Origin: Murdochiella vaginalis
GTDB taxonomy: Bacteria > Bacillota > Clostridia > Tissierellales > Peptoniphilaceae
DNA length: 64,000 nt
Direction of reading: 5' to 3'
Assembly (NCBI RefSeq): GCF_900119705.1
Contig: NZ_LT632322.1
Span: forward strand, 248,001 to 312,000
In this document: positions 20,263 through 62,737 of the stretch, piece after piece
Layout: each line of letters opens with the position of its first letter
How positions within the stretch are numbered: position 1 is the stretch's first letter
The notes under the pieces: model-generated
Database searches by the model: none
What the model was told of the DNA's origin: nothing
What the model saw: only the letters and a program-made list of their open reading frames with translations
Program-made: the position numbers and the translations under genes

Positions 20263-20632
20263 GATTTTCGTCCTTTCTGTTTTGTAGCAATATAATATCA
20301 TTTTAATATCATCACGACAAGAGGAATATAACAGAAATAGATAATTTTTCGGTTCGGCTTTGGTAAAGAAAGAGACGAAAGAGGCAGGACGGGACGGTTA
20401 AGAACCGAATTATTTATTAAGATCAATCAAAAAAATCGCAAATATTAAAATATTTTTTTTATCAAAGTAAAAAGAATTGCAATTTATATGGAGAGTGATA
20501 TTATGGACTCATTGAATAGCCTACTTGTTTAATAGCACATTGTATCAACGTCTTGAATTTATAGGTGTAACACATGCTGCAACCGTTACGTTCCGTAAAA
20601 AGCAAAAGGCGACGATGGAAAGGGATGGAACA
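20263..20632. other. AT-rich spacer upstream of the pilus locus
   Basis: About 370 bp between divergent transcription units. It is markedly AT-rich from 20401 to 20505, unlike its surroundings. It holds the predicted pilus promoter and, after it, a possible 9-codon ORF from ATG 20503. A weak in-frame TTG at 20525 would extend the adhesin but is not favoured. Confidence 0.5.
20477..20504 (+). promoter_or_regulatory. Candidate promoter of the pilus operon
   Basis: TTGCAA (20477-20482) and TATTAT (20499-20504) are separated by 16 bp in an AT-rich tract. It lies about 125 bp upstream of the adhesin start. Confidence 0.5.
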
Positions 20633-23600
20633 ATGAAGAGCACAATAGGCAAGAGGGTCATGGCATTGGCCTTAGCCTTTCTGATGGTATTAGAATTAGT
20701 TCCGGGTTTACTTCCTTATGAGGAAGGCAATATTGTCTATGCCGATGAAGCGGGATCTACAGGCGCCGTGCGCCCAGCTCTGATGCCGACAGAAGACGAA
20801 AAGGAACAAAAATCGGATGCAGATAAAACCGATCGGTCCTTGTTAAACAACCTTGTTCAGCCCTTTTTAAACAATACTGTCGTTACGCCACAAAGCTCAG
20901 ATATATCGGCGCAGTCACAAAATGTCAAAGAAGAGGCTACACCACAAATTGACGATCTTCGCTTAACGCCTCTTCATTATGTCGAAAATAAAGATGGCAG
21001 TTCTCTTTGTGAAACAGCGCTTTCGTTCTCTTGGAGCATTCCCAAAACGGCCGTTGCCGGAACCGAAGTATCGTTAACGTTGCCCGAAGAACTTACGCAA
21101 AACTACTATATAAAGAAAGGTCAAGAAGAGTACCCTCTGGGGCAAATTAAAGACCAGAGCGGGCAAGCCCTTTTTGATTTGTTTTTCCAGTTTACAGAGG
21201 CACAACCTCAAGAGGAAGCCTTCAAAGAAGCGCAAGGATTTACCAGTGCCAACATTCTTTTTCGTTTGACGCCTTATGGCGAAAAAGCAGCAAGTCAAAG
21301 CGAAACGGGTTTAAGCGGACAGGGGCTCATTGGTGAAGAATTGAATCCCGAAACGCTGGCTCGCATAGACGATCAAAAGCTTTCAGCAGGCTTAAAGTAT
21401 AACGAACCGGTATACCGTGGCTTTACGTATCATGACGAATGGCATGATGCACATCCTGCCGATCGCGAACAACAGAAAACACTCACCTTCACGATTCAAT
21501 CACAGCAACAAAAGAAGACGGTTTCGACGCCACTTGTGATCAAGAAAAGCCGTGCTCTCGACGAATGGCGGTCTCGTTATCCCTTGTCCTATACGCTTCA
21601 AGAAAATCAAGCAACGTTACATATGAATCTTAACGGACGGCTTATCATTCCGGAAACCGTAGTTGCGGCGACTGTCGAGAAGAACGCGATTGCTGCTTCA
21701 CAGGAGCAAAAACAGGAAGCGACAAAGAGCGAAGATGGAAAACCGCAGTCTTTTGTGCCGCGGTATGCTGTTATTTCCTTGACGGGCATAAAACCGGCAC
21801 AATCGGCGCTAACGCTGTATACAATCCAGGATGGAAAAGCAAGACAAATTTTCCCCGCTGAAGGCGCAGATTTCGTAGTATCAACCGACACCGGTTTTGC
21901 TTTGGATGTGCCGAAGCTACAGACAGCTCTGCAAAAAAACGCAGATGCACAGGCCAAAGAAAAAATCAAAACGATTTACTATACGTTGCAAGCAGTCAAA
22001 GCGGATCAACAGCCGACGTTGCTACAGACTGCGTTTTACGGATTGGATCCTTTGGCGGCTACGAGTCCGCAAAACGGGAAAGAAACCGAGCCCAAGGACA
22101 GCATCCTACATACGGATTATGCTGTGGCTTCTTTGGCAAGTCAGGCAACCGAAGTTACGAATGCACTCGATAGCACTTACAATACAACAATCAACTTCTT
22201 GTCCGCAGAGGCTCTTTCTATTCAGGAACAGGAGCGTAAGGCACTCTTCACGGCGGCGGATCAGGAGACTTTAAGCCTTCCCGCCTTTACGGAGTGGATA
22301 AAAAATAGCACGAATGCGCGCGCACAACGTGCCGCGGATAAAAAAGCAATACTGAAAAAAGTGAACAGTACCGAGCGGCTGCTTGCTTCCCCTCAGCGTG
22401 CACCGCTTAAACCGGGGGATCATGGTTCTACCAGCAAGAGATTTCCGATTGAAATCGAATACGCCACACACCAATACGTTTGGCATGTCAGCGGCACGCA
22501 GTGGGACACCAGCTTTGAGAAAGATAAAATGGTCTGGGATATTCAGCTGGATATTGACGACCTGCAAGCAGCGACTCTTAATTTTACGCAGCTTTCTTAC
22601 AGCCTCTACGCATCTAAGAATCAGGGGCTAAAGGATTTCAAGGTGAGCTTTGCCTCGACCAAGGAGGGCCTGAAAGCTCCAGGGCAAGGACAGCCTTTCA
22701 ACTCGGATGCCACAATGGCTCTCTTTGACACCACGGAGAATAAGGCTTCTTTGTCCAATAAGCGCTGGATTCGTGTCAGCGCCTCCTTTGATACGGCCAC
22801 AAAAACCTTAGACGGCAAAACCGTTCCACAGAATCCGCAGAATGGCCAGTACACTCTGGGTCTGCGCGTTTCGCCGGATAAAAACTATATCTGGGAAGCA
22901 CGGCAGGAATTTATTGAGGCGTACAAAAAACTGACAAAAATTCCTCTGGTTATCACTTGGATTCAAGGGTTAAATAAAACAGATAAGTTTAATAAAGGGT
23001 TTAACTTGGTTGACGCACGTTTTGCTTCGGCGGTAGCTGTCGGTGATCGCGAATACGAAAGCCGATTCTATGCGGATAAAACGCGCTCCATTACGGGAAA
23101 ATTTGTTGGAACCAACAGTGGTTCTTCTCAACCGAAATGGGAAGTGATTGAATTGCTTCGCCTGAAGGATCAGTCCGATTCTGCCATCAATGATGCTCAA
23201 TTTACGAAGGCAGGCGGTTCGGTTTCCGCAAACGGAACATTGCAATCTGTGGTCGCCTATGTGCCGAAAAAATCGACCGATGTGACGGTGGGCGGCTATG
23301 ACCGATACGAGCTGGCCGATAAGACCGCCACGGGTATTAGTGATTGGCTAAAAACGAACCAATTGCCAGGCACCTTCTTGGTCTATACCTTTGCCGCGGA
23401 TCCTGGTACTGTCTACGAAGAAAACGCCATCAGCATTAACTTCCAGTCAAAATGGGACGATGAACAGGGCACCACCGGTGGACAAAAGTCGGGCAGCATC
23501 CGCGAATACACTCCGCAGGAGAAGAATGCGGACTATTATGCTTTGGCTGCTAAAGTGAATGATTGGTCCCCGGATAATCCAAAGGGAATATACAGCTATG

Positions 23601-26600
23601 GCGGCAGCTCGATGCAGATTGACAAGACCGGTGAATTGGCTTTCTGCTTTAACAAAGCAAAAATCTTCCCCCAGTCCCAGTTTGGCCGATTGGGTCTGAC
23701 CCAAAACGTTGTAACAGGGGATAGTATCTTGAACGCTCTTGCTGACCCTGGCGCGTTTGAGCGAAGCGGAGCACTGACTTTGCTTAAAAAAATCTTCTTC
23801 TATGCGGAAGAGATGAAAAGAGAGTACCAAAAGCAGTATGGAAAACAGATGAACACGCTCTTCTACTATACGGTAGTACAGCATCTCATTTGGTATAGTT
23901 CGAGAGATAACTATAGTCTAGGCGAATTTTATCGTGACACTGGTTTGATTAAAGCGGTTCATGATCATTGGTTTGGCGATGCGCACTATGATTCCCGCGT
24001 GGAAGATTCCCCATCGACGACGGCGGGGCATTACGCCGAGGGTAAGACCGTTACGAAAGATGGTCGGACCTATATAGATGTGTATCATGCGACCTATCAA
24101 GTCGAAAGCAATATCTTGAATAAGATGCAGAACGGAAACTGGACGCAGGATAAAGAAGACAGCGTCCGGATCCGTGCTTATACCCATGCGGAGCTTGATA
24201 AGTTTCAGTCCTTGGTTACCGGCGATGTTCCTGTGCCCGTGGATTTTGCGAAAGTGGATCAGGACAACAAGGGCTTGGCGGGCGCAACCTTTGCCATTTA
24301 TGATGCCTCCGGCAATCTCCGCAAAACGTGGACCAGTCAGGTTGACCAAAATGGGAATCTGGTTCGGGAGCCCCTTTATCTACGACCGGGAAAGTATGTT
24401 CTCAAAGAGCTCACTGTGCCGCAGGGGCGGCAGTCCATTGGCGAAGTACCTTTTGAAATTGACTTCAAACAGGAGTTTCATTGGGCAAAAACGGATGCGG
24501 ATTTCGGTGTTGAAGTGAACCGTAAGGTGATTGATAACGAAATCTACAGCTTACTCATTAACGGCCAAAAAATCCCCTACGCCAAGGATGGATCGATTCC
24601 CTTGGTGTATCCAAACAAAGGGATAGGAGCGAGTGGTGCGGCTGCGCTGGCGGATGAAAACATGGGCCTTGTGGTCAAGAACATCCCCGACAATACCGCG
24701 GAATTGACGTTTACAAAGACAGGCCTTGAGGGTCGTGTGATCGACGGTGCTGTCTTCCAACTCGTTTCCAACGATGGTACAAGCAGCAAGAATCCAACGT
24801 ATGACAAGCGGTCTGCGGGAACAAAGGGTGAATTCCGTTTCATCGGCTTAACGGATACGGTCGGCGGCTATACTTTGACGGAAATTGCTCCACCAGCAGG
24901 CTACGAAATGCCGCAACCCAACAGCTGGCAAGTAACGGTCACTAAAAAGGATCCCAATAGCCCCGATTCTAAGCTACAGGCTACAATCGAGGGAATTCCT
25001 TTTTCATCGAATTCGACGCAGGTGATCCCTAACGAGCCGAAGAAGACGGATTTAAAGTTCCGCAAGGTGGATGAGAAGGATTCAAACAAGGGCCTGGAAG
25101 GAGCCGTTTTTGAACTGGTTCAGACCAAGGGCGGAAACTACTCAAAGCAGGCTACTTCGGATGCGGGAATGGTTTCGAATCCGAATTATGTTGAAGGATC
25201 AAGCGATCCGGCGACAAAGTATAAAGAGATTCATGACCCGGCCAAAGTGGGTTTCTTTACCTTTACAGACCTCACCATTGGTGAGTATACGTTAACCGAA
25301 CGCTCAGCGCCAAACGGCTATCTTCCGAACACCACAACAACGTGGCGCGTGGTCGTGACCGAACAAAACGGTCAATTGGTCACAACCGTCTATGAAAAGA
25401 AAAGCGGCACGGAGACCGTCATTGCGCCGGATCAAGTGCTTGCAGCGTATCTTCTGACCAACAAGCAAGAAACCACAAGCATCAAGCTGCGTAAGTATAA
25501 AGGGGAAAAGACTCCTCTTACCCTCTTCACATCGACCGAATTGACAAATGGAAAGGGCGGCAAGCCGGTTGCGTTTAAACTGACAGAAACCAATTACTAT
25601 GGCAACCCTCTGCCCGGCGCCCAACCTCGGGTTTTGGCATTAAAGACGGATGCCAACGGAGACGCCTATTTTGACCTGAGCGATCTTCATTCCGGCGGCT
25701 ACTATGTGTTGGAAGAGATCAATTCGCCGCAAAACTACGGGCCGGCACCAAGTGCTAATCCGAATGATCCGAATGCGGGTAATCTTCCTAAGCTCGTCTG
25801 GAATCTCAAGGTCATCACGGATGCCAACACCGGAAAGCTGAAAGTGTTGGTGGCCCATCCGGATAATGCGACCGTGATTGATCCGGACAACCAATTAAAT
25901 GGCATTAAAAACTTCCCGGACAACTCCAAGAAGGGACGTCTTGTCGCACGAAAGGTTGGCCAGAGTATTCCCACATCCGGGCAAGTGCAGCATACGGTTG
26001 GTATCGGCCGAGCCCACATTCGTCTGTATGATCTGGAGACTGTAGCCGCCAATCAGTACAAACGGAAACTGAATGCCGGCGGCTACCCGATTTATCAGGA
26101 ACGGCTATCAGCCGGCGGTGTTGTGGGCGGAAATGATGATGAGAGAGGCTGGGCTGTCTTTGAAAACCTGGACCCCGGTTCATATGAGCTGGTGGAGCAC
26201 ATGTCACCGGCCGGTTATAAGAAAACGGAGAACACCTGGCTTGTAACGGTGGAGGCGGATGGATCAACCACCTGGAGACGCATCGATGGTGGGATGAAGT
26301 ATGATCCAACGACCAAGATCTGTGATTTGACCAATGTGATAAATCAGCCGGGCGGGACGGGCGCCCAGGGAGTGGAATTGCAAGCACCAGCAGACTCGCC
26401 CTTAGGTCAGAAAGTCCAGAACCACCATACCGAGGTGAAACGAGACCAAGGCACAGAGGAAAAGTACACGGTTACGGCCAAGATGACAGGAAACACCGGC
26501 ACCAACTACGTTCCCAAGTCCTACCGCTATATCTTGGCTTTAGACCGGCGGACCACGCCACAAAAACAAGAGCAGAATAATGCCCTTTTTGATGCCAAGA

Positions 26601-29600
26601 TTAAGGAATTCTTGACTAATCTTAAGGCTAAAGCCGCCGCATCGAAGGACACCGTTGAAATCGCGGTCTTGAACTATGGTTACCGTTATAGCGGGGATGG
26701 GTTGCCGTTGGACAAGATCCCCTATGTGGATCCCGATTTGGTGATGGGCAGCTCAATGACCTTCGCTCCGCTTAATGGAGCGACCGATATTGATGCTTTC
26801 TTCACCACTAAGGTGAAACCGCGGCAAAAGAAAAATACTTTACTCAACTGGAAACAAACCGGCTATGAGTCGCTGAAAGACAACTTGAGTGTCAACCATT
26901 TTGGCCGGGCTTCCGACGCCGATCATATCAATATTTTTGTGAATATTGATAACCGGACTTTTTCGCCGGATCAAACGCCGGTTTCCGAAGGCATTAAGGG
27001 CTTTAATACCGCTATGTCCCGCCTGATTGGCCAAGGGGTGGATGTCTGGTACCTCCACATGGATTACGTAGCTCAAGATAGTAACGAGTTCTCGTTTTTT
27101 ACCAAATATCTGCAAGCCAACCACCTCACCTGGCAGAAGTACACGATGAGCACGGCCCGCTTCGATACAGAACCGGCTCTAGATACCTTCTTAAGTAAAA
27201 TCGTCAATCTCATTCCCGATCCTCCAGTCCAAAAGCCGCAGGTAGAGAAGGGCATCTATACGGTTCAGGTAAAAGACGGTTTCCTTCTGGACGGCACGCC
27301 GACGATATCTCCGGCGACGTATGCCACCGGTGTGACGGTTGCTGCGGATCACAAGAGTTTCACGGTCAATACTTTGACCCTTCCCGCCGGAAAGGACTTT
27401 ACGATCACCTATACCTTGAAACGGGATACCAACGTCACCCTGGGCCAAGATTACCACGAAATGTATACGGCTTCGCTTACGCCTACGCCGACAGAGGATC
27501 CGATTGCTATTGCTGGGGCCAAATATCATCCGGCACCGGACACCGGGTCCGGAACGGTGGAACTCTTTAACACGGATGAAGACCTTTCGCGTATTCCTTT
27601 GCGCGTGACGAAGGTGGATAAGTACGGGCGTGTGAAGAGCCAGGCTCAGTTCCGCCTTTGGAAGGACATGTCGAAAAAGGTCGCTTATGAGAACTACCAG
27701 AACTACGACGTGGAATATGATGCCATTGCGGCGGCTACCGGGGAACCCGGAGACTACTACTTCCGCGAGTTGACGCCGGGCGAATATGTCCTGGAAGAGC
27801 TGAAGACCCCGGATGGTTTCCAGCCGCCGGTGGACGAACATGGCCAGCCCATGCACTGGACCATCAAGGTCACTCAGTATAAGGATACCGATGGAAAGGT
27901 TAAGCTCCAGGTCCACCTGCCGGGTGATGGACCGCAGTTCACTCCTCCTGCAGGGATTGGCGCCATTCCTTCGGCTAAGTATCTGGTAGCCGTACCTGAC
28001 GATGGGCGTACCCCGCCGGCTCGTCCGGATGCGCCGTACCAGACGATTCGCGAAGCACAGATCACCAACTATCCCAAGACGGCAGACATCGCCTTCCAGA
28101 AGCGCGACGCAGAGGGGACGAATACGCTGCCGGGCGCAGAATTCACCCTGACAGGCTGGATTACCCAGAGGGGCGCCAACGGAGAGCTTTTGTCTCCGAT
28201 ACCGTACAAGGATGCGAATGGAAATACCACCGTTACGGTGAAAAGTGATGACAATGGGGTGGTCTTCTCCGGTCTTCCTGAAGGATCGTACGTCATTACA
28301 GAAGTGAAGGCACCCGACGGCTATCAGCTGCCACCCGGAACAAAAAACATGTGGAATGTCAAGGTGAGCTGGAACAAGACTACCGGCGAATTGGTGCCGG
28401 TATGGGAAGGCTCCGGCGCAACCGTTAACGGGGTGCCCTTGGGCGACTATACGAAGACGCCGGCGGGAGAAATCCGTATCAGCAATCAAAAGGCGCGTAT
28501 CGCTTTACACCTCGAAAAGGTAAAAGCGAGCAACGGCGATGCTCTGTACACCTCGGGCTTTTTACTGGCTAAAATTGATGACAAAGGAAAACCGACGGGC
28601 GAATACTACATTGAGCAGAAGAAGACAACAGATAACACCTATGTCTTTACAAACCTGACGGCGGGGCGTTATCGGTTGACCGAAACTGTCGTGCCGAACG
28701 GCTATCTGCAACCGCAACCTTGGTATTTCGAGGTGGTGGCCGATCCGAACACCGGAGCACTTGGCTTTAAGTCCGATTTGTCTTCAGGGCACAGCGATTA
28801 TCAGGTGGTCTATGCCAATGGAACCACGGCTTCATCTGGTGCTGAAGTGCACTATGGTGAGAAGGACAAGGTGCGAATTAAGAACTATCAGCCGACGAGC
28901 TTTGAATTCCGCAAGGTAAACCAGTCGACGAAGAGTATCGTTGGCGCGGAATTCCGACTCATCAAGACCAAAACTGCGGCGGATGAGGCGTTAGGCTACG
29001 ATGCGACAACACGGGCTACCTTCAAGTATGTGGACGGCAATCCCAAAAATATCGCGGACAACAATAAAGCCAGCTATACGGGCCACGGTTATTATCGGGA
29101 ATTAAAGGGTGATCGCTATGTGTTCGCATTTGACCAACTCAGTGAAGGCACGTATGAGCTGACGGAGATCAAGCTGCCGAACGGTGCCATGAAGCCGAAC
29201 TTGAATTCGGGGACGGGTAACTTGCCGACTTGGACGATCGTCGTGGAGCGAGGCGAAAAAGGGCTGGTTGTGAAAAAGACCGGCTCGAACATCACGCCGG
29301 GACAAACCGGCGTAGTGATTGGGAAGGATAACTTTGTAATTCCTTCCGAAACAGCAACGTATCCCACAGAGATCAAGCCGGGGGCGTTGCTGTACAATCG
29401 CCTCACCAAAACAAGCTTTGGTTTTGCCAAGGTGAGCGAGGACGATCCGACCAACTTTGTTGCCGGCGCGGAGTTTACCCTCCAGAAATATGATAAGAAT
29501 CCGCAGATGAATTCGGCGGCGCAATTAATAGGACCTGTTCTGCATCCGGAAGGCTATTATCTGGCGGATGGAACGACTCTATCCAAAAAACCCATTATTG

Positions 29601-30460
29601 ATTTCCGGTTTAAGGATTTGGAGGCCGGCTGGTATCGTCTGACGGAAACCGCTCCGCCAAAAGGCTATCTACAGCCCAAGAAGGCGGGAACCGATGATAA
29701 CTGGTGGACGCTGGTTCATATCGACTCCGACTTGAACATCTCTATGCCGGAATTGGTCCAGTTCTATGCCAACGGGCAGAACAAGGGAAAGTTCCACCCC
29801 TACATTCGCTTCGAATATCCAGAAGACAAATCGGGTCCGATGCACATCGTCAACTATCTGGACATGAAGTTGAAGATCAAGAAGCTGGATGGAAATGGCC
29901 AGTTGATTAATAAGGATTGGCCGAAGTCGGATAATACAGGCAAGAGCAGGATATTGAAATTGCAGCTGGATCCGGCAGTAGGTAATCCGAACAAGGTGCC
30001 AAAGGCGCTGGCCGACGCGTTAGCGAGCATTGATCTGACGAAGCAAACGGACGACGGCTTCTCGTTTGATCTTCCCTATCCGATGGATGGTAAGTATATT
30101 CTGACCGAGGTAACGGCGCCGGAAGGCTATATTCGCACCTTTAACCGTTATACTCTCTCGATTGACCGAAAAGCGGGGAAGGTCACCTTAAAGGCCATTA
30201 AGAACGCTGGAGATAAGGATCAGTTGTACAACGGTCAGGATTTGACCACAAAACCTGCGATTCTTTGGGAACGGCAGTATAATGCCGATCCGACGAGTAT
30301 GGCGTTAGAGTTGCGCAATCCCAAGGCGGAGTACCCCGATTCCGGCGGAATCGGAACGAGACTCTTCGTAATAAGCGGCCTCGCCCTGAGCCTGACAGCC
30401 TTGGTGGGTCTGGCATATCGTCGAAGAAAGAGAAAAAGAGAAGGAGGTCTCCTATGTTGA
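20633..30460 (+). CDS. Giant pilus tip adhesin with thioester, CnaB/SpaA and vWA-like domains
   Basis: A surface protein of ~3275 residues, first gene of the pilus operon. Residues 1-37 are a signal peptide (cleavage after VYA). Residues ~60-990 look like Ig-like adhesin region. Residues ~970-1190 resemble a thioester domain: Cys1005 in AFCFN and Gln1083 in VVQHLIW fit the Cys-Gln thioester pair. Eleven CnaB/SpaA-type modules follow, recognised by E-boxes such as YTLTEIAPPAGY (Glu1417), with a vWA-like domain at ~1940-2190 whose MIDAS reads DRRTT rather than DxSxS. The C-terminus is YPDSGG, a membrane helix and RRRKRKR, a divergent sorting signal. Start 20633 is chosen for the signal peptide and the upstream GGAAAGGGA; ATG 20615 is possible. 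Tip position is inferred from gene order and domains. Confidence 0.88.
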   Translation: MKSTIGKRVMALALAFLMVLELVPGLLPYEEGNIVYADEAGSTGAVRPALMPTEDEKEQKSDADKTDRSLLNNLVQPFLNNTVVTPQSSDISAQSQNVKEEATPQIDDLRLTPLHYVENKDGSSLCETALSFSWSIPKTAVAGTEVSLTLPEELTQNYYIKKGQEEYPLGQIKDQSGQALFDLFFQFTEAQPQEEAFKEAQGFTSANILFRLTPYGEKAASQSETGLSGQGLIGEELNPETLARIDDQKLSAGLKYNEPVYRGFTYHDEWHDAHPADREQQKTLTFTIQSQQQKKTVSTPLVIKKSRALDEWRSRYPLSYTLQENQATLHMNLNGRLIIPETVVAATVEKNAIAASQEQKQEATKSEDGKPQSFVPRYAVISLTGIKPAQSALTLYTIQDGKARQIFPAEGADFVVSTDTGFALDVPKLQTALQKNADAQAKEKIKTIYYTLQAVKADQQPTLLQTAFYGLDPLAATSPQNGKETEPKDSILHTDYAVASLASQATEVTNALDSTYNTTINFLSAEALSIQEQERKALFTAADQETLSLPAFTEWIKNSTNARAQRAADKKAILKKVNSTERLLASPQRAPLKPGDHGSTSKRFPIEIEYATHQYVWHVSGTQWDTSFEKDKMVWDIQLDIDDLQAATLNFTQLSYSLYASKNQGLKDFKVSFASTKEGLKAPGQGQPFNSDATMALFDTTENKASLSNKRWIRVSASFDTATKTLDGKTVPQNPQNGQYTLGLRVSPDKNYIWEARQEFIEAYKKLTKIPLVITWIQGLNKTDKFNKGFNLVDARFASAVAVGDREYESRFYADKTRSITGKFVGTNSGSSQPKWEVIELLRLKDQSDSAINDAQFTKAGGSVSANGTLQSVVAYVPKKSTDVTVGGYDRYELADKTATGISDWLKTNQLPGTFLVYTFAADPGTVYEENAISINFQSKWDDEQGTTGGQKSGSIREYTPQEKNADYYALAAKVNDWSPDNPKGIYSYGGSSMQIDKTGELAFCFNKAKIFPQSQFGRLGLTQNVVTGDSILNALADPGAFERSGALTLLKKIFFYAEEMKREYQKQYGKQMNTLFYYTVVQHLIWYSSRDNYSLGEFYRDTGLIKAVHDHWFGDAHYDSRVEDSPSTTAGHYAEGKTVTKDGRTYIDVYHATYQVESNILNKMQNGNWTQDKEDSVRIRAYTHAELDKFQSLVTGDVPVPVDFAKVDQDNKGLAGATFAIYDASGNLRKTWTSQVDQNGNLVREPLYLRPGKYVLKELTVPQGRQSIGEVPFEIDFKQEFHWAKTDADFGVEVNRKVIDNEIYSLLINGQKIPYAKDGSIPLVYPNKGIGASGAAALADENMGLVVKNIPDNTAELTFTKTGLEGRVIDGAVFQLVSNDGTSSKNPTYDKRSAGTKGEFRFIGLTDTVGGYTLTEIAPPAGYEMPQPNSWQVTVTKKDPNSPDSKLQATIEGIPFSSNSTQVIPNEPKKTDLKFRKVDEKDSNKGLEGAVFELVQTKGGNYSKQATSDAGMVSNPNYVEGSSDPATKYKEIHDPAKVGFFTFTDLTIGEYTLTERSAPNGYLPNTTTTWRVVVTEQNGQLVTTVYEKKSGTETVIAPDQVLAAYLLTNKQETTSIKLRKYKGEKTPLTLFTSTELTNGKGGKPVAFKLTETNYYGNPLPGAQPRVLALKTDANGDAYFDLSDLHSGGYYVLEEINSPQNYGPAPSANPNDPNAGNLPKLVWNLKVITDANTGKLKVLVAHPDNATVIDPDNQLNGIKNFPDNSKKGRLVARKVGQSIPTSGQVQHTVGIGRAHIRLYDLETVAANQYKRKLNAGGYPIYQERLSAGGVVGGNDDERGWAVFENLDPGSYELVEHMSPAGYKKTENTWLVTVEADGSTTWRRIDGGMKYDPTTKICDLTNVINQPGGTGAQGVELQAPADSPLGQKVQNHHTEVKRDQGTEEKYTVTAKMTGNTGTNYVPKSYRYILALDRRTTPQKQEQNNALFDAKIKEFLTNLKAKAAASKDTVEIAVLNYGYRYSGDGLPLDKIPYVDPDLVMGSSMTFAPLNGATDIDAFFTTKVKPRQKKNTLLNWKQTGYESLKDNLSVNHFGRASDADHINIFVNIDNRTFSPDQTPVSEGIKGFNTAMSRLIGQGVDVWYLHMDYVAQDSNEFSFFTKYLQANHLTWQKYTMSTARFDTEPALDTFLSKIVNLIPDPPVQKPQVEKGIYTVQVKDGFLLDGTPTISPATYATGVTVAADHKSFTVNTLTLPAGKDFTITYTLKRDTNVTLGQDYHEMYTASLTPTPTEDPIAIAGAKYHPAPDTGSGTVELFNTDEDLSRIPLRVTKVDKYGRVKSQAQFRLWKDMSKKVAYENYQNYDVEYDAIAAATGEPGDYYFRELTPGEYVLEELKTPDGFQPPVDEHGQPMHWTIKVTQYKDTDGKVKLQVHLPGDGPQFTPPAGIGAIPSAKYLVAVPDDGRTPPARPDAPYQTIREAQITNYPKTADIAFQKRDAEGTNTLPGAEFTLTGWITQRGANGELLSPIPYKDANGNTTVTVKSDDNGVVFSGLPEGSYVITEVKAPDGYQLPPGTKNMWNVKVSWNKTTGELVPVWEGSGATVNGVPLGDYTKTPAGEIRISNQKARIALHLEKVKASNGDALYTSGFLLAKIDDKGKPTGEYYIEQKKTTDNTYVFTNLTAGRYRLTETVVPNGYLQPQPWYFEVVADPNTGALGFKSDLSSGHSDYQVVYANGTTASSGAEVHYGEKDKVRIKNYQPTSFEFRKVNQSTKSIVGAEFRLIKTKTAADEALGYDATTRATFKYVDGNPKNIADNNKASYTGHGYYRELKGDRYVFAFDQLSEGTYELTEIKLPNGAMKPNLNSGTGNLPTWTIVVERGEKGLVVKKTGSNITPGQTGVVIGKDNFVIPSETATYPTEIKPGALLYNRLTKTSFGFAKVSEDDPTNFVAGAEFTLQKYDKNPQMNSAAQLIGPVLHPEGYYLADGTTLSKKPIIDFRFKDLEAGWYRLTETAPPKGYLQPKKAGTDDNWWTLVHIDSDLNISMPELVQFYANGQNKGKFHPYIRFEYPEDKSGPMHIVNYLDMKLKIKKLDGNGQLINKDWPKSDNTGKSRILKLQLDPAVGNPNKVPKALADALASIDLTKQTDDGFSFDLPYPMDGKYILTEVTAPEGYIRTFNRYTLSIDRKAGKVTLKAIKNAGDKDQLYNGQDLTTKPAILWERQYNADPTSMALELRNPKAEYPDSGGIGTRLFVISGLALSLTALVGLAYRRRKRKREGGLLC

Positions 30461-40834: not shown

Positions 40835-42082
40835 TTATTTCGCGGCGACTTTATGGAGAATGGCCTCGTCGTTGTATTTATCAACGATAGCGGCAATCGC
40901 GTTATCACCGGAGACATTGCAGGCCGTGCCGAAGGAATCCTGCGTGATGTAAAGCGCAACCATCAGGGCGCAAATCGGGCCCTGCGGATCACCGGCAGGC
41001 ATACCAAAGATAAGATACAGGAACGGCAGCGCGGTCATGATGGATCCGCCCGGAGCACCCGGCGAAGCGACCATGGCAATGCCGAGGGTCAGGATGAAGG
41101 GAACGACCGTAGTGATCGAAATCGGCAGGCTGTGCATGAGGCAAACGGCGGTCGCGCAGGCGACGATCGTGATCATAGAGCCGCACATATGAATGTTGGC
41201 ACACAGCGGAACGACGAAGTTGCGAATTTCACGGCTGACGCCGTTGCTCTCGGCGCACTGCAGGTTGACCGGGATGGTCGCAGCCGAGGATTGTGTACCG
41301 ACGGCGGTCAGGTATCCCGGAATCTGATTCTTGATCATCGTGAGCGGATTGCGCTTCGTAATGCTACCGGCAACGCTGAACTGAATCAACAGATAGATCC
41401 AATGCATCAGGATGACGACGAGGAACACTTTCCAAAGAATGCCCAGGATGGTGAAGGTTTGTCCGGAATACGTCATGTTGACGAAGGTACCGCAGATGTA
41501 GAGCGGAAGCAGCGGGATAATAACCTTGCTCAGCACTTTTTCGATAATTTTGGCAAACTCGCTCATGCCGGTGTAGAGGGCATTGCCGATTTCTTTTCCG
41601 CGCATGGTGGAGATGCTCAAGCCCAAAATAAAGGCAAAGACCACGGCAGAAATGGTGTCCAGCAGCGGCGGCAGATTCAATGTGAAGAACGGATCCAGCG
41701 TCTTTTCCGCCGTGTCGGCGATGGTTTTGATATCTTCCGCGGAAATAAAGGACGGGAAAAGCGTGGAAGATACCACGTAGGACGCTGTACCGGCAATCAA
41801 GGTCGAACCATAGGCAAGGACCACCGTGAACAGCAAAAGTTTTCCCGCACCTTGCGAGATGTCCGCAATACCCATGGTGACGAAGGCCAGAATCATCAGC
41901 GGAATAACGAATTTAATCAATAAGCTGACGAAGTTGGATACGGTAACCACGGTTTGCGAGAGGAACTCCGGTGCGTATTGGCCGATCAGGATACCGAGAA
42001 CGATACCGATAATCAGTCGGGGGACGAGACCGAGATGCTTCTTTTCAGTCTTTTCTGGGACATTTGGATTTGTGCTGTCCAT
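40835..42082 (-). CDS. Dicarboxylate/amino acid:cation symporter (SDF family)
   Basis: A 415-residue transporter of the GltP/SstT superfamily with about eight membrane helices. The serine-rich re-entrant loop TQSSAATIPVN (near residue 270), the second loop VASPGAPGGSIMTALP, and the helix 8 segment NVSGDNAIAAIVDK are family hallmarks. The location upstream of serine dehydratase suggests serine (or serine/threonine) uptake, similar to SstT, but specificity cannot be read directly. Start 42082 follows AAGGAG; the ORF start at 42115 is not supported. Confidence 0.9.
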   Translation of the reverse strand: MDSTNPNVPEKTEKKHLGLVPRLIIGIVLGILIGQYAPEFLSQTVVTVSNFVSLLIKFVIPLMILAFVTMGIADISQGAGKLLLFTVVLAYGSTLIAGTASYVVSSTLFPSFISAEDIKTIADTAEKTLDPFFTLNLPPLLDTISAVVFAFILGLSISTMRGKEIGNALYTGMSEFAKIIEKVLSKVIIPLLPLYICGTFVNMTYSGQTFTILGILWKVFLVVILMHWIYLLIQFSVAGSITKRNPLTMIKNQIPGYLTAVGTQSSAATIPVNLQCAESNGVSREIRNFVVPLCANIHMCGSMITIVACATAVCLMHSLPISITTVVPFILTLGIAMVASPGAPGGSIMTALPFLYLIFGMPAGDPQGPICALMVALYITQDSFGTACNVSGDNAIAAIVDKYNDEAILHKVAAK

Positions 42083-42253
42083 AATGCACTCCTTATGTAA
42101 TAATAGCCGGCTCATCGCGATCGGAAAGAAGAAAAAAAGAAAATAAATTTTCGGTCCGATGAAAACCTTACGACACTTTAAATGTACACGAAATCTTCAC
42201 GGTTGTAAATTGCATTCTGCGGGGAAGCCGGGGCGTTCACTGGCGGCGTTGGC

Positions 42254-42592
42254 GATGGTGGTAGTAAGGCGAAAAGGCATTTCCGCCACCATCGTTCATG
42301 CCCTTGGTGATGGTGGTGATTTAGCGAAAATGCCTTTCCACCACCATCGTTTATGCTCTTGATGATGGTGGTGATTTAGCAAAAACGCATTTCCCCCACC
42401 ATCGTTCATGCCCTTGGCGATGGTGGTGATTTAGCAAAAACGCATTTCCACCACCATCGTTTATGCTCTTGGTGATGGTGGGGATTTAGCAAAAATGCAT
42501 TTCCACCACCATCGTTTATGCCCTTGGTGATGGTGGTGATTTAGCGAAAACGCATTTCCACCACCATCGTTTATGCTCTCGGCGATGGTGGC
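42254..42592. repeat. Hairpin array A1: seven units, exact 55-bp period
   Basis: GATGGTGG starts at 42254, 42309, 42364, 42419, 42474, 42529 and 42584, every 55 bp without exception. Each unit pairs it with CCACCATC about 32 bp later, enclosing a loop with TTTAGC(G/A)AAAA. A 15-bp spacer (e.g. GTTTATGCTCTTGGT) follows. The seventh unit is truncated after its left arm. No gene overlaps convincingly. The same family recurs at 62214-62528. Confidence 0.95.
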
Positions 42593-42668: not shown

Positions 42669-42720
42669 TGGAGCCGCCTTCGGCGGCGTTTATCAACCGC
42701 CGGCCAAAGGCCGGCTCCTT
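42669..42720. repeat. Double-hairpin module DH1
   Basis: Two adjacent hairpins, GCCGCCTTCGGCGGC and CCGGCCAAAGGCCGG, separated by a short T/A-rich link. Related copies are at 55281, 55629 and 60179, each close to a GTAGAG-type array. Confidence 0.85.
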
Positions 42721-42745: not shown

Positions 42746-43099
42746 GTAGAGGGGTCGTGGTGGCTGTAGAGGGGTTTTACCAAAAACAGCGAAACCACTC
42801 TACAGTAGTTTCGGTGGTCGTAGAGTGGTTTCGTCGAAAACCGCAAAACCCCTCTACAACGATTTCGGTGGATGTAGAGTGGATTCGGCAAAAACCGCAA
42901 AACCACTCTACAGTGGTTTCGGCGGTTGTAGAGTGGATTCGGCAAAAACCGCAAAACCCCTCTACAGCGATTTCGGTGGCCGTAGAGTGGTTTCGTCGAA
43001 AACCGCAAAACCCCTCTACAACGATTTCGGTGGATGTAGAGTGGTTTCGGCGAAAACCGCAAAACCCCTCTACAGTATATTCAATGCCTGTAGAGGGGT
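42746..43099. repeat. Hairpin array B1: seven units, exact 54-bp period
   Basis: GTAGAG(T/G)GG starts at 42766, 42820, 42874, 42928, 42982, 43036 and 43090, with one extra at 42746. Each unit closes about 38 bp later with CC(A/C)CTCTAC around a loop containing GAAAACCGCAAAA. A 16-bp spacer such as AACGATTTCGGTGGAT follows. Arm variants TGG/CCA and GGG/CCC are mixed. Because 54 is divisible by 3 and no stop occurs, several frames on both strands stay open; I do not treat them as genes. Confidence 0.95.
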
Positions 43100-43202
43100 T
43101 GGCTAAAAAACAGCGAAAAAACACAACGTTCCGTTTCACGATAGACAAAAGAGGTGCAGATGCATCTCTCTACCAAGCCCGTCCGTTCGTCGCCCAATCC
43201 TC

Positions 43203-43310: not shown

Positions 43311-44354
43311 TTAGAGGTCGTCCACCAGTGCGCCGCTTTTAGCGTAGGCAGTGGAGCGAGCTTCGAAGAAGTCGGTGCGGATCATGTTGGCGTTGGAGTA
43401 GTTGGAAACCCATTTCATGCTGTCGGGTTCTTCCTGATAGCCCGAGAAGATGGGATCCAGACCGAGGCCGGTGGCACGCAGGTTGCCGAGGTAACGGATG
43501 TAGTCGACGCACATCTGGCCGTTCAGGCCTTCCAGGCGATTGCCGATCACATAATCCGCCCAGGCCATTTCCTGCTCCGTGCCTTCCTTAATCATGCGCT
43601 GGTACTCATCCTGCAAGGTGCTGCGGAAAAGCTCCGGGTTCTCGTCACGCAGCGCATGGATAATGCTGCGGAACAGCCAAAGATGTGTATTTTCATCGCG
43701 GTTGATGTAGCGAATTTGCTGCGCCGAGCCGGTCATGCGACCGTTGCGCGCCAAATTGTAAAAGAACATAAATCCGCTGTAGAAGTAGATGCCTTCGAGG
43801 ATGTAATTGCCGATCATCACGCGCATGAAATTGTGCACGTCCGGCTGCTGCTGAAAATCGTTATAGATGTCGCCGATGAATTTGTTGCGGCGAAGAAGAT
43901 GTTCATCGTTTTTCCACTGGTACAGTACCGCATCGCGTTCGTTGGGCTCGCAGATGGAATCCAGCATGTAGCTGTAGCTCTGGGAATGGATGCATTCCTG
44001 ATAGGTTTGGATATGCAAACAGAGATTGGTCTCATTCGCCGTGATGTATTGCGAAATGGACGGCAGATTGGCTGACTGGATGCTGTCCAGGAAAATCAGA
44101 AAGCTGAGGATTTTGTCGTAGGCGCGGCGTTCGTCCTCCACCAATTGCGGATACTGCTTTTTATCCTGTGCCAGGTTAATTTCCTCCGGAATCCAGAAAT
44201 TGTTCATGGCCTGGCGATACCAGTCGGAAACCCAATCGTATTTCATGTTGTTAAAATCGTTGAGGTTGGTGGTGTTGCCGCCGATCATGCGGCGCTTCAC
44301 AAGCTCCGTGTCGCCATCCGGGTTAAACAACGGGTTTTTGCGCATCAGTTCCAT
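43311..44354 (-). CDS. nrdB: Ribonucleoside-diphosphate reductase class Ia, beta subunit
   Basis: A 347-residue radical-generating subunit. Metal ligands can be read as Asp90, Glu120, His123, then a Glu in LEGIYFYSGF and the pair in NRDENTHLW. Tyr127 lies four residues after His123 (HSQSY), the place of the radical tyrosine in class Ia, so it is not the Phe variant of class Ic. It follows nrdA, with a 136-bp spacer, on the same strand. It makes deoxynucleotides with NrdA and needs oxygen to form its radical, notable in a presumed anaerobe. Confidence 0.93.
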   Translation of the reverse strand: MELMRKNPLFNPDGDTELVKRRMIGGNTTNLNDFNNMKYDWVSDWYRQAMNNFWIPEEINLAQDKKQYPQLVEDERRAYDKILSFLIFLDSIQSANLPSISQYITANETNLCLHIQTYQECIHSQSYSYMLDSICEPNERDAVLYQWKNDEHLLRRNKFIGDIYNDFQQQPDVHNFMRVMIGNYILEGIYFYSGFMFFYNLARNGRMTGSAQQIRYINRDENTHLWLFRSIIHALRDENPELFRSTLQDEYQRMIKEGTEQEMAWADYVIGNRLEGLNGQMCVDYIRYLGNLRATGLGLDPIFSGYQEEPDSMKWVSNYSNANMIRTDFFEARSTAYAKSGALVDDL

Positions 44355-53578: not shown

Positions 53579-54181
53579 ATGACAAGAAAAGAACAAATTG
53601 AAAAGCGCATTCAGAACATGGAATCCGGGACAGCGTTTATTGCCAGTGACTTCTTTGATCTGAGCGACTATGAAAATGTCAGAAAGATTTTGAATCGACT
53701 GACGGATGCTAAAAAAATTCGCAGGCTCCTTCCGGGGGTTTATGATGCACCTCGTTACAGTGTTTTGCTTGAAGAATGGGAGGCACCAAATCTTCATGAG
53801 GTGGCTTTAGCACTGGCACGAAAATACAACTGGTCAATTGCTCCAACCGGTAATACTGCTCTTAATCTGCTGGGCCTATCGACGCAAGTGCCTGGGAAAT
53901 GGACATATATCTCAGATGGGCGTTACGTCACGTACAACGTGAAAGGGACGCTGTTGGAGTTTAAGCATCGTGCGAATGGAGAAATCACCGGTTTCAGCAT
54001 GAAGGCGGCGATGGTCATTCAAGCCATTCAGGCGATTGGAAAAGATCAGATCACAGAGGAACAGCTTTGCGTGTTGCGTGATCTTTTATCCGAAGTTGAG
54101 CGCCATGAACTGATGGTGAAGGGAAAAGCGACCAAGAGTTGGGTGTATCAAATCATTCGTAAAATCGGAGAGGCAGCCTGA
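53579..54181 (+). CDS. AbiEi-like antitoxin (DUF6088 type)
   Basis: A 200-residue protein with an N-terminal winged-helix-like segment (EQIEKRIQNMESGTAFIASDFFDLSDYENVRKILNRL) and the family pattern RRLLPGVYDAPRY and APTGNTALNLLGLSTQVPG. AbiEi proteins repress their own operon and neutralise AbiEii. ATG 53579 is supported by AAAGGAGG 6 bp upstream; an upstream start at 53558 lies inside the operator. Its stop overlaps the toxin start (TGATG). Confidence 0.87.
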   Translation: MTRKEQIEKRIQNMESGTAFIASDFFDLSDYENVRKILNRLTDAKKIRRLLPGVYDAPRYSVLLEEWEAPNLHEVALALARKYNWSIAPTGNTALNLLGLSTQVPGKWTYISDGRYVTYNVKGTLLEFKHRANGEITGFSMKAAMVIQAIQAIGKDQITEEQLCVLRDLLSEVERHELMVKGKATKSWVYQIIRKIGEAA

Positions 54182-55182
54182 TGGATATAAGAAAAATCGG
54201 TCAAGAGGATTTGCGCATTCTCATTCGTAACACAGCCCAGAAGATGGGCATTCATGAAAGCGTCGTGGAGAAAGATTTCTGGGTCTGCTTCGTTCTGAAC
54301 GATCTCTTTCATGAGAGCCCATGGCAGAAGGCGCTAACCTTCAAAGGTGGGACGAGCTTATCCAAGTGCTTTTCTATTATTGAGCGCTTTTCAGAAGACG
54401 TCGATCTGATTTTGGACTGGCGTACTTTAGGCTATGGCTTGAACGAGCCTTGGGAAGAACGATCGAATACGAAGCAGGACAAATTCAACCATGAAATCAA
54501 TACGAAGACGGAGACATTTTTGGCTGATATTTTTGCGCCTCAATTTTTGGAAGCTTTAAAAGACAAGGCGGGCGAAGGTCTCACCGTCCGCATTGACCAA
54601 GCGGATCCACAGACCGTCTTGTTTGAATACCCTAAACTTTTCTCTTCCAGTTATCTGAGTGAAGTGGTGCGCCTTGAGATTGGAGCTTTGGCCGCTTGGA
54701 CACCATCGGAGGAAGTTTCCATTCAGCCCTATGTGGCGGATGCCTATCCGGAGGTTCTTCCAGAGGCAGCCTTTACTGTGCAGACGGTTTCTCCAGAGCG
54801 TACCTTCTGGGAGAAAGCCACCATTCTGCATCAGGAAGCCCATCGGCCTGAAGATCTGGCCATGCCAGCACGATATGCACGGCATTACTATGATCTGTAC
54901 CGGATCAGTTTGTCGAAATACAAGGACAAAGCCATTGCGAACCCTGACCTGCTCCAAAAAGTTGCTGCGTTCAAAAGAAAGTTCTATCCACGCAAGTGGG
55001 CCAGATATGAGGAAGCAACCGTTGAGAAAATCCGTCTTGTGCCAGATGCGTATCGTTATCCAGCGCTGAAAAAGGATTATGAAGCCATGCAGGAGATGTT
55101 CTTCCATGAAGTTCCGAAGTTTGCAGACCTGATAGAAGCACTTCGCCAATTAGAAGAAGAGATTCATCAGTCCCAGAAATAA
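54181..55182 (+). CDS. AbiEii/AbiGii-type nucleotidyltransferase toxin
   Basis: A 333-residue toxin of the AbiEii family. The nucleotidyltransferase motifs are KGGTSLSK (55-62) and SEDVDL (71-76), whose two acids bind metal. LTFKGGTSLSKCF and RFSEDVDLIL are diagnostic. Known relatives transfer nucleotides to tRNA or other targets and stop growth, including abortive phage defence. It is coupled to its antitoxin by a one-base overlap. There is no sign of decay. Confidence 0.9.
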   Translation: MDIRKIGQEDLRILIRNTAQKMGIHESVVEKDFWVCFVLNDLFHESPWQKALTFKGGTSLSKCFSIIERFSEDVDLILDWRTLGYGLNEPWEERSNTKQDKFNHEINTKTETFLADIFAPQFLEALKDKAGEGLTVRIDQADPQTVLFEYPKLFSSSYLSEVVRLEIGALAAWTPSEEVSIQPYVADAYPEVLPEAAFTVQTVSPERTFWEKATILHQEAHRPEDLAMPARYARHYYDLYRISLSKYKDKAIANPDLLQKVAAFKRKFYPRKWARYEEATVEKIRLVPDAYRYPALKKDYEAMQEMFFHEVPKFADLIEALRQLEEEIHQSQK

Positions 55183-55280: not shown

Positions 55281-55340
55281 GCTTCATAAGGAAGCCGCCT
55301 TCGGCGGCGTTTTTAAACTGCCTGCCGCAGGCAGGCGCAT
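55281..55340. repeat. Double-hairpin module DH2
   Basis: AAGCCGCCTTCGGCGGCG, then T/A link, then GCCTGCCGCAGGCAGGC, directly before array B2. The second stem differs in sequence from DH1/3/4 but keeps its length, implying structure is conserved more than sequence. Confidence 0.82.
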
Positions 55341-55346
55341 TATCTT

Positions 55347-55590
55347 GTAGAGTGGATTGCTGAAAAAAGCAAAACCACTCTACGCCCGTTCGCAACCCTG
55401 TAGAGTGGATTGCTGAAAAAGGCGAAACCACTCTACACCCGCTCTACGCCCACTCGTCATTTTGTAGAGTGGATTGGCAAAAAAAGAGAAAACACTCTAC
55501 AGACGCTCGCGATCTTGTAGAGTGGAATCGTCAAAAACACAAAACCACTCTACACTTGCCTGCACGACGGTAGAGCGGTTTTGCCTTAAT
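55347..55590. repeat. Hairpin array B2: five GTAGAG units, 53-bp period
   Basis: Units start at 55347, 55400, 55464, 55517 and 55570. Spacing is 53 bp except one of 64 bp, where an extra CGCTCTACGCC is inserted. Arms are GTAGAGTGG and CCACTCTAC, loop contains GCTGAAAAA or GTCAAAAA. The last unit has a substituted arm and no right arm. Confidence 0.93.
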
Positions 55591-59760: not shown

Positions 59761-59788
59761 TGGGAACCGGCCAAGGGCGCATTATCTT

Positions 59789-60130
59789 GTAGAGTGAAAT
59801 TATCAAAAAGGAGAATCCACTCTACGTCCGTTTGTGATCCTGTAGAGTTGAATAGCCAAAAATGCAAAACCACTCTACATTCATACGTGACCCTGTAGAG
59901 TGAATTGCTGAAAAAGGCGAAACCACTCTACACCCGCTCTACGCTCATTCGTCATTCTGTAGAGTGGATTGGCAAAAAAGGCAAAACCACTCTACATCCC
60001 CTCGCGATCTTGTAGAGTGGAATCGTCAAAAAGGCGAATTCACTCTACACTCGCTCGCGATCTTGTAGAGTGCAATCGTCAAAAACACAAAACCACTCTA
60101 CACTTGCCTGCACGACGGTAGCGTGGTTTT
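59789..60130. repeat. Hairpin array B3: seven GTAGAG units, 53-bp period
   Basis: Units start at 59789, 59842, 59895, 59959, 60012, 60065 and 60118. Spacing is 53 bp except one of 64 bp, with the same 11-bp insertion as in B2. The last ~150 bp continue into sequence nearly identical to that after B2, so B2 and B3 derive from one duplicated block. Confidence 0.93.
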
Positions 60131-60178: not shown

Positions 60179-60270
60179 GAGCGCCGCCGAAACCATTATT
60201 GGCGGCGCGGCTTCATAAGGAAGCCGCCTTCGGCGGCGTTTTAAATCGCCGGCCACAGGCCGGCACCTTC
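60179..60270. repeat. Triple-hairpin module DH4
   Basis: Near-identical copy of the 55629 module: GCGCCGCC stem, CTTCATAAGG, GCCGCCTTCGGCGGC stem and CCGGCCACAGGCCGG stem. It lies 178 bp before rnz. Confidence 0.9.
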
Positions 60271-62001: not shown

Positions 62002-62213
62002 AAATGGAATTTAACCGTGTGCGATTCGACGCGCTTAGAAAAGAAGCGGGGCTAAACAGATTTATAATGACGCCGAGCAAATGGATGGAATCAACAGAAG
62101 CGACTGGAATCGATGGCGCTTTTTTGACGGATGTTAACCACCTAAGGGCCGCTTACAACAAGTTTTTACAAGAGATTGTAAGGCTTAAGCACATAAACGT
62201 TTCTTTCGCGGAA
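61986..62213 (+). pseudogene. Truncated KilA-N domain protein remnant
   Basis: In the frame starting at ATG 61986 (or 62004) the peptide FDALRKEAGLNRFIMTPSKW and MESTEATGI resembles the start of KilA-N domains found in phage and mobile-element proteins. The rest of the domain is missing: after about 75 codons the frame runs into hairpin array A2 and stops at 62339. No complete start signal is seen. This looks like a fragment left after loss of a prophage or mobile gene. Confidence 0.6.
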
Positions 62214-62528
62214 AGTGGTGGTGGTTTAGCGAAAACGCCTTTCCACCACCATCGTTTATCCCCTCGGCGATGGTGGGGATTTAGCGAAAACGCCTTTCCA
62301 CCACCATCGTTTATCCCCTCGGCGATGGTGGGGATTTAGCGAAAACGCGTTTCCACCACCATCGTTTATCCCCTCGGTGATGGTGGGGATTTAGCGAAAA
62401 TGCTTTTCCACCACCATCGCTTATGCCCTCGATGATGGTGGCAGTAAGTCGAAAACGGGCTTTCCCCACCATCGTTCATGCTCTCGCTAATGGTGGTGGT
62501 TTGGCGAAAACGGGCTTTCCCCACCATG
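62214..62528. repeat. Hairpin array A2: about six units, exact 55-bp period
   Basis: GATGGTGG occurs at 62269, 62324, 62379 and 62434, with degenerate left arms at 62214 and 62489, all 55 bp apart. Right arms CCACCATC and loops with TTTAGCGAAAACGC match array A1, 20 kb away. Spacers read mostly GTTTATCCCCTCGGC. Confidence 0.94.
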
Positions 62529-62602
62529 GCCGCATAGGGGGCCAACTTGCCGTGTCGCTTTCCTTTCACAGACTTCTCTCTATGTTTTTTTCTTTTAGGT
62601 CT

Positions 62603-62638
62603 CACATCAATTGTATCTCTACACACATCAATTGTATC
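62603..62638. promoter_or_regulatory. Two 15-bp direct repeats at 21-bp spacing upstream of the ABC genes
   Basis: CACATCAATTGTATC is repeated exactly at 62603 and 62624, followed by TCTACA and GTTACA. A spacing of two helical turns suggests cooperative binding by a regulator, about 100 bp before the ABC transporter start. Confidence 0.6.
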
Positions 62639-62737
62639 GTTACAGAACATAGTCACCGCGCTATGATTTTCGTTGCGTGTGAACAAAAAACATGACACAA
62701 TAGTTGCGTATGTAAATCGCAATTTTGAGGAGGCATT

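Follow-up and report, generated by a model that had tools for sequence, protein, structure and literature searches.

For the REP and BIME-2 palindromes of E. coli, binding by gyrase and by other proteins has been reported (PMC2817692, PMC6379681), and BIME-2 is both bound and cut by gyrase in that species (PMC6379681). The array considered here, A1 of Murdochiella vaginalis, resembles these elements in layout, in that the Murdochiella arrays are intergenic, high-copy tandem arrangements of palindromes with regular spacing and a mosaic composition. As in REP elements, which are high-copy intergenic palindromes often found in regular clusters, the single-contig M. vaginalis genome (G000; 1,671,491 bp) carries ~20 non-coding arrays with more than 100 hairpins. 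However, the Murdochiella arrays differ from BIME-2/REP in that several unrelated stem families occur in each genome, the spacing of an array moves in steps of one helical turn, and the array-rich genomes lack the REP-associated tyrosine transposase. A search for the Y1 transposase (RAYT, PF01797) that detected it in control genomes found none in G000, in the congeners G002, G003 and G004, or in G010 and G071, two species of a second genus of the family, and a RAYT-type REP element was rejected on this absence. In a further Murdochiella species, G001, where one array was found in the ~32 kb sampled, a gene of the Y1 transposase family is interrupted by an internal stop (L264; G001:C9:1919-2254).

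The pneumococcal BOX element (boxA-boxB(n)-boxC, PMC3049150) is also similar by layout: its tandem stem-loop units vary in number and stand between a leader and a tail, and the elements are scattered over intergenic sites and cluster with other repeats. The Murdochiella class differs in having ~20 stem families and quantised spacing, and the leader-tail form is found in only part of its A arrays. Members of the GTAG/CGTC-tagged REP superfamilies (PMC3733652) are likewise short high-copy palindromes, and the arms of family B happen to include GTAG, but this GTAG is itself part of the pairing arm, with CTAC as its mirror image at the opposite end. No imperfect palindrome with an adjacent GTAG or CGTC tag was found, and family A has neither motif.

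Could the loops and spacers instead be guides, as in a CRISPR or TIGR array? As in TIGR arrays (TIGR-Tas, PMC12045711), short conserved stretches are interleaved with variable ones of constant length, family C being the clearest case. However, the Murdochiella-type arrays are many and unlinked, show no linkage to an effector gene, have variable parts of ~13-24 nt compared with TIGR spacers of mostly 9 nt (PMC12045711), and do not have diversified loops in families A and B. The Nop-domain Tas protein (PF01798) was absent from all seven genomes in a search that detected it in archaeal controls, and a TIGR array was rejected for want of this protein. CRISPR arrays consist of near-identical 24-48 bp repeats with unique spacers, whereas the conserved parts here are arms of 8-10 nt, and the loops and spacers of A and B are similar between units rather than unique. 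A guide-RNA array is therefore the least credible of the explanations considered.

A search of the openly licensed literature returned no paper describing such arrays. We propose, at a probability of roughly one half, that A1 is one copy of a dispersed, lineage-specific, non-coding class of putative phased protein-binding inverted-repeat arrays that are BIME-2-like in layout.

Array A1 and its neighborhood

Throughout, the window is the whole 64,000-nucleotide stretch of DNA that was analysed. In it, A1 is resolved as a tandem array at 42249-42591 (6.2 copies, period 55, 88% matches, zero indels) with an exact register in every unit. Each unit has the arms CGATGGTGG/CCACCATCG, a 24-nt loop and a 13-nt spacer, and scores 71-84 bits with model R1. 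The relevant features are as follows.

40835..42115, minus strand: SstT-like gene, sodium:dicarboxylate symporter family protein; its start lies ~135 bp from A1, which is upstream of it
42249..42578, plus strand: array A1, six complete 55-bp hairpin units starting at 42249, 42304, 42359, 42414, 42469 and 42524
42579..42592, plus strand: degenerate seventh copy of A1, with left arm GGCGATGGTGG and no right arm, hence no hairpin
42672..42720, no strand assigned: GC-rich double-hairpin module between A1 and B1, GCCGCC-TTC-GGCGGC plus GCCGGCC-AAA-GGCCGGC-TCCTTATTTT, terminator-like on the plus strand
42764..43087, plus strand: array B1, six 54-bp units with arms GTAGAG[T/G]GG / CC[A/C]CTCTAC, a stem unlike that of the adjoining A1
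43088..43119, plus strand: degenerate last copy of B1, left arm only
43311..44354, minus strand: nrdB, ribonucleotide reductase small chain; B1 lies downstream of its stop
55345..55567, plus strand: array B2, four B units with spacings of 53, 64 and 53, a single 11-bp step
59787..60115, plus strand: array B3, six B units with spacings of 53, 53, 64, 53 and 53
62210..62529, plus strand: array A2, six A units at 55 bp, with an upstream leader of ~95 bp common to the arrays at 358, 683 and 1416 kb

A1 and B1 are both placed between nrdB and the SstT-like transporter gene, each of which is on the minus strand, and B3 is a diverged copy of B2 with similar flanks. The initial annotation described A1 as seven hairpins at an exact 55-bp period with a conserved GAAAA loop. 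The period is upheld, with no drift, and the count is corrected to six, the copy at 42579 having no right arm. GAAAA is present in units 1, 2 and 6 and is replaced by AAAAA in units 3-5, such that only AAAA is invariant.

The predicted folding of A1 is far stronger than that of shuffled sequence (z -7.5), as it would be for any palindromic array. The A-unit model recovers dozens of other copies in the M. vaginalis genome (E down to 5e-19), and an exact pattern has 15 matches compared with 0 for the reversed control. A1 is a real array, and on these matches chance is ruled out.

A dispersed repeat class in the M. vaginalis genome

A search of the genome and its relatives for similar arrays, as the initial annotation had advised, revealed more arrays in three congeners beyond the ~20 in M. 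vaginalis; its case for neutral duplication, a single array in a single strain, gave way to a dispersed, lineage-specific repeat class. Reading of the genomes covered the stretches around model hits together with samples. Two main kinds are present in G000: A, with stem GATGGTGG/CCACCATC at 55 bp, and B, with stem GTAGAGTGG/CCACTCTAC at 53-54 bp. According to the A- and B-unit models, most of these arrays are found at 290-370 kb and 606-701 kb, and A adjoins B at 290, 352, 659 and 701 kb.

All of the G000 arrays lie in stretches without a convincing gene. Based on crude ORF calls, the neighboring genes may be co-directional, divergent or convergent with no single rule of orientation, and a terminator or promoter role set by gene orientation was rejected on these grounds. 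Arrays of A and B also occur in both orientations relative to their neighbors. A leader of ~95 bp and a partial tail are common to the A arrays at 310, 358, 683 and 1416 kb and in G004, and are absent in A1, while a GC-rich double-hairpin module adjoins most A and B arrays in G000, G003 and G004.

The main rival to our proposal follows from this construction. Arrays could be selfish interspersed repeats of a BOX- or MITE-like kind with no host function: leader-units-tail modules would be carried to intergenic sites that tolerate them by some machinery for mobilising or copying, whose requirements would set the spacing. The mosaic make-up of the arrays, which have leaders, tails and GC modules in common, and the presence of arrays in every orientation class of intergenic region are what such spread would leave behind. 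However, neither leader and tail alignments nor orthologous sites defined a clean insertion end or a target duplication, and the array-rich genomes are those without the Y1-family transposase. On balance, we consider selfish spread plausible but less probable than phased protein binding.

The GC-rich module (GCCGCCTTCGGCGGCGTTTT plus CCGGCC-nnn-GGCCGG) is seen at window 42672-42720, 55290-55340 and 60190-60240 and at many array flanks; it looks like a two-way terminator and is a repeat in its own right, and a similar module comes after the J array of G002. A further family, Q, consists of tandem GCGCCGC/GCGGCGC hairpins at 40-42 bp (L149 2602-2856, L143 2220-2491, L062 1550-1709) that adjoin A/B/C clusters.

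Spacing of units and helical phase

How strictly is the distance between units kept? In family A, 85 of 101 intervals are exactly 55 bp; the 16 exceptions (53.5-56.5) are artefacts that arise because the register shifts within the repetitive arm. Nearly all B intervals are 53-54 bp, with three at 62 or 64, and all 56 intervals of family C fall within 52-54 bp despite nearly randomised loops and spacers. Base changes are frequent in these arrays, and length changes are almost absent except for steps of about one helical turn.

Across families, the spacings cluster at ~43-45, 53-55 and 63-65 bp, corresponding to 4, 5 or 6 helical turns. The modal spacings of 14 stem families (A 55, B 54, C 53, D 54, E 45, F 44, R 44, H 65, I 64, J 64, K 63, M 53, P 63 and S 54) yield R = 0.87 in a Rayleigh test at 10.5 bp (p ~2e-6), a value to be read with the proviso that families may share ancestry and their spacings are not fully independent. 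With new families added and related stems pooled, and with the outlier Q (41 bp) still included, R was 0.855 (p ~3e-6), a value reached in 0 of 20,000 simulations in which the period was free between 10 and 11. If a turn is taken as 10.75 bp, the phase is nearly zero, and the spacings therefore correspond to approximately 4, 5 or 6 whole turns. The remark in the initial annotation that 55 bp is just over five helical turns gains indirect support from this clustering of ~20 stem families.

Changes of spacing within a family or array amount to 9-11 bp, as in B (53 to 64 or 62), H (54 to 65) and K (53 to 63/64), and D has spacings of 54 and 65. In Murdochiella the C stem is spaced at 53-54 bp; in the second genus most of its intervals are 43-44 bp, and G010 also has some of 53-54 bp. 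The expected range of spacings was fixed before G071 was read; families U, V and X (43.5-44) fell inside it and T, which alternates between 42 and 45 (modal 42, mean ~43), fell just outside. This result is supportive but small, and several of the stems are similar GC-rich runs. Both Q and T lie at the edge of the spacing clusters. Helical quantisation is left unexplained by selfish spread unless a phased DNA-binding protein is also involved.

An A/T periodicity of ~10.5 bp is the expectation for DNA wrapping or intrinsic curvature. Inside the units, periodicity of 10.5-10.7 bp is strong in H, I and J and in one C array of G010, and weak in Murdochiella A, B and C, for which intrinsic curvature or a gyrase-like 10.7-bp A/T pattern was rejected. 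Since the gyrase-like signal is weak in these three families, gyrase is not named here as the binder.

Conservation of arms, loops and spacers

The information per site in families A and B is highest in the arms (1.5-1.7 bits), lower in the loops (0.85-1.2) and lowest in the spacers (0.5-0.6). Three of the ten arm pairs of B are invariant in 107 distinct units, and pair 8 is variable. If base pairing were being maintained, a change in one arm should be matched in the other. At pair 6 of A, there are 18 one-sided changes and no double change; at pair 8 of B, there are 42 one-sided and 15 double changes, only 4 of which still pair. Arm changes are thus mostly one-sided, and doubles that preserve pairing are not clearly above the expectation from independence. 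Because the changes are mostly uncompensated, it is the sequence of the arms, rather than their pairing, that is kept by selection or copying. RNA structure under selection was rejected on these counts.

The covariation between arms for which the initial annotation had suggested a test did not clearly appear, and its suggestion of selection on structure or on protein binding is accordingly divided: the structural half is not supported, given the mostly uncompensated changes, and the binding half draws indirect support from spacing that is kept while loops and spacers vary. A function at the RNA level, in which transcribed hairpin arrays serve as terminators, shield 3' ends or regulate through their structure, would fit the stable predicted folds and the terminator-like module that adjoins the array. 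However, this explanation is improbable given the lack of compensation, the helical-turn steps in spacing, which have no obvious role in RNA, and the occurrence of A and B arrays in both orientations relative to their neighbors. Moreover, the window has no Rfam match at gathering score and only chance-level matches at E up to 1, and a known structured RNA family was rejected.

Plain tandem duplication without selection, with uniformity arising from recent copying, would account for neighboring A and B units that are 70-80% alike in loop and spacer. It is contradicted by family C, in which the loops of neighbors differ at 57% of sites and the spacers at 61%, nearly randomised, with arms and spacing held.

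Distribution and turnover among species

Arrays of the same build with ~20 different stems are found in seven species, five of Murdochiella and two of the second genus. Arrays of A and B are also present in two further Murdochiella species, G003 and G004. The A model has no match in 57 of the 61 genomes searched, and a weak match in G010 is a different stem. Among 84,980 species, the exact A pattern is confined to Murdochiella, and viral contigs contain no match to it. Searches of phages, plasmids and viral contigs gave no match, and an origin from any of these was rejected.

A stem-blind search revealed arrays with other stems in G002 and G001 and, in the second genus, in G010 and G071, while ten other relatives sampled at 40-140 kb each had no convincing array; the detector row for G041, an irregular AT-rich cluster, was left out. 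The family C stem, CCCTGGCT/AGCCAGGG, is present as exact copies in G003 (105), G004 (83), G010 (18) and G071 (32), and the remaining 77 genomes have one isolated match, with none for the reversed control.

Upstream of secA, an A array is found in G000 (3 units) and G004 (8 units) and a C array in G003, with none in G001 or G002. Upstream of dnaX, A and B arrays are present in G000, G003 and G004, an unrelated J array (64 bp) occupies the site in G002, and G001 and G010 have none. Downstream of nrdB, the A and B arrays of G000 correspond to an H array (65 bp) in G002, with none in G001, G003 or G004. In addition, orthologous arrays of G003 and G004 differ by exactly one 55-bp unit. Therefore, arrays gain and lose whole units, and unrelated stems fill the same sites in different species; the comparison covers three sites, a number too small to demonstrate that selection maintains them.

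The one-unit difference between sister species is also what plain tandem duplication predicts, but the recurrence across genera of ~20 stems in seven species contradicts it, and we consider that explanation very unlikely. Selfish spread agrees with confinement to one lineage and with different stem families at the same site in sister species, and is opposed by the absence of any match in phages, plasmids and viral contigs.

A proposed model of phased protein binding

In the model that we favor, based on sequence comparison, the arms would be recognition sequences and the units would stand about a whole number of turns apart (4, 5 or 6 turns of ~10.7 bp each). We infer that a sequence-specific protein occupies each unit, probably as a dimer across the two arms. 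Successive copies would then occupy the same side of the helix and together make up a cooperative array. The role of such an array may be in chromosome architecture or topology, as proposed for E. coli BIME-2 with gyrase or a nucleoid-associated protein. Array length changes by whole units, probably via slippage or unequal recombination, and one stem family takes the place of another between species.

We hypothesize, tentatively, that these arrays constitute a new class of element: palindromic sites at 4, 5 or 6 turns that are read by one or more putative architectural proteins. The sequence recognised would change from one species to the next, with the phased layout and some chromosomal sites retained. 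Intergenic repeats are usually ascribed to selfish spread or to RNA structure, and here the spacing itself, at whole helical turns in ~20 different stems, is evidence for protein binding at the DNA level. If this is true, the arrays would offer a readable model for the chromosomal action of palindrome arrays like BIME-2, as well as a protein to find in poorly studied human-associated anaerobes.

Other features near the arrays

At L064 2504-2855 and L065 2458-2694 (G000 ~359 and ~368 kb), there are tandem repeats of 63 bp that are degenerate and contain hairpins, for example AGGAGCCC/GGGCTCCT. An AbiEii-type nucleotidyl transferase of a type IV toxin-antitoxin family (window 54181-55182) directly adjoins B2. 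At window 62603-62644, and also in G004 (L134), 21-bp direct repeats CACATCAATTGTATCGCTACA lie upstream of an ABC transporter gene and are possibly an operator. An expression of concern dated 2026 applies to the paper in which Murdochiella vaginalis was described (PMC12918405). Finally, an open frame of 3311 codons at window 20525-30460 probably encodes a very large surface protein.
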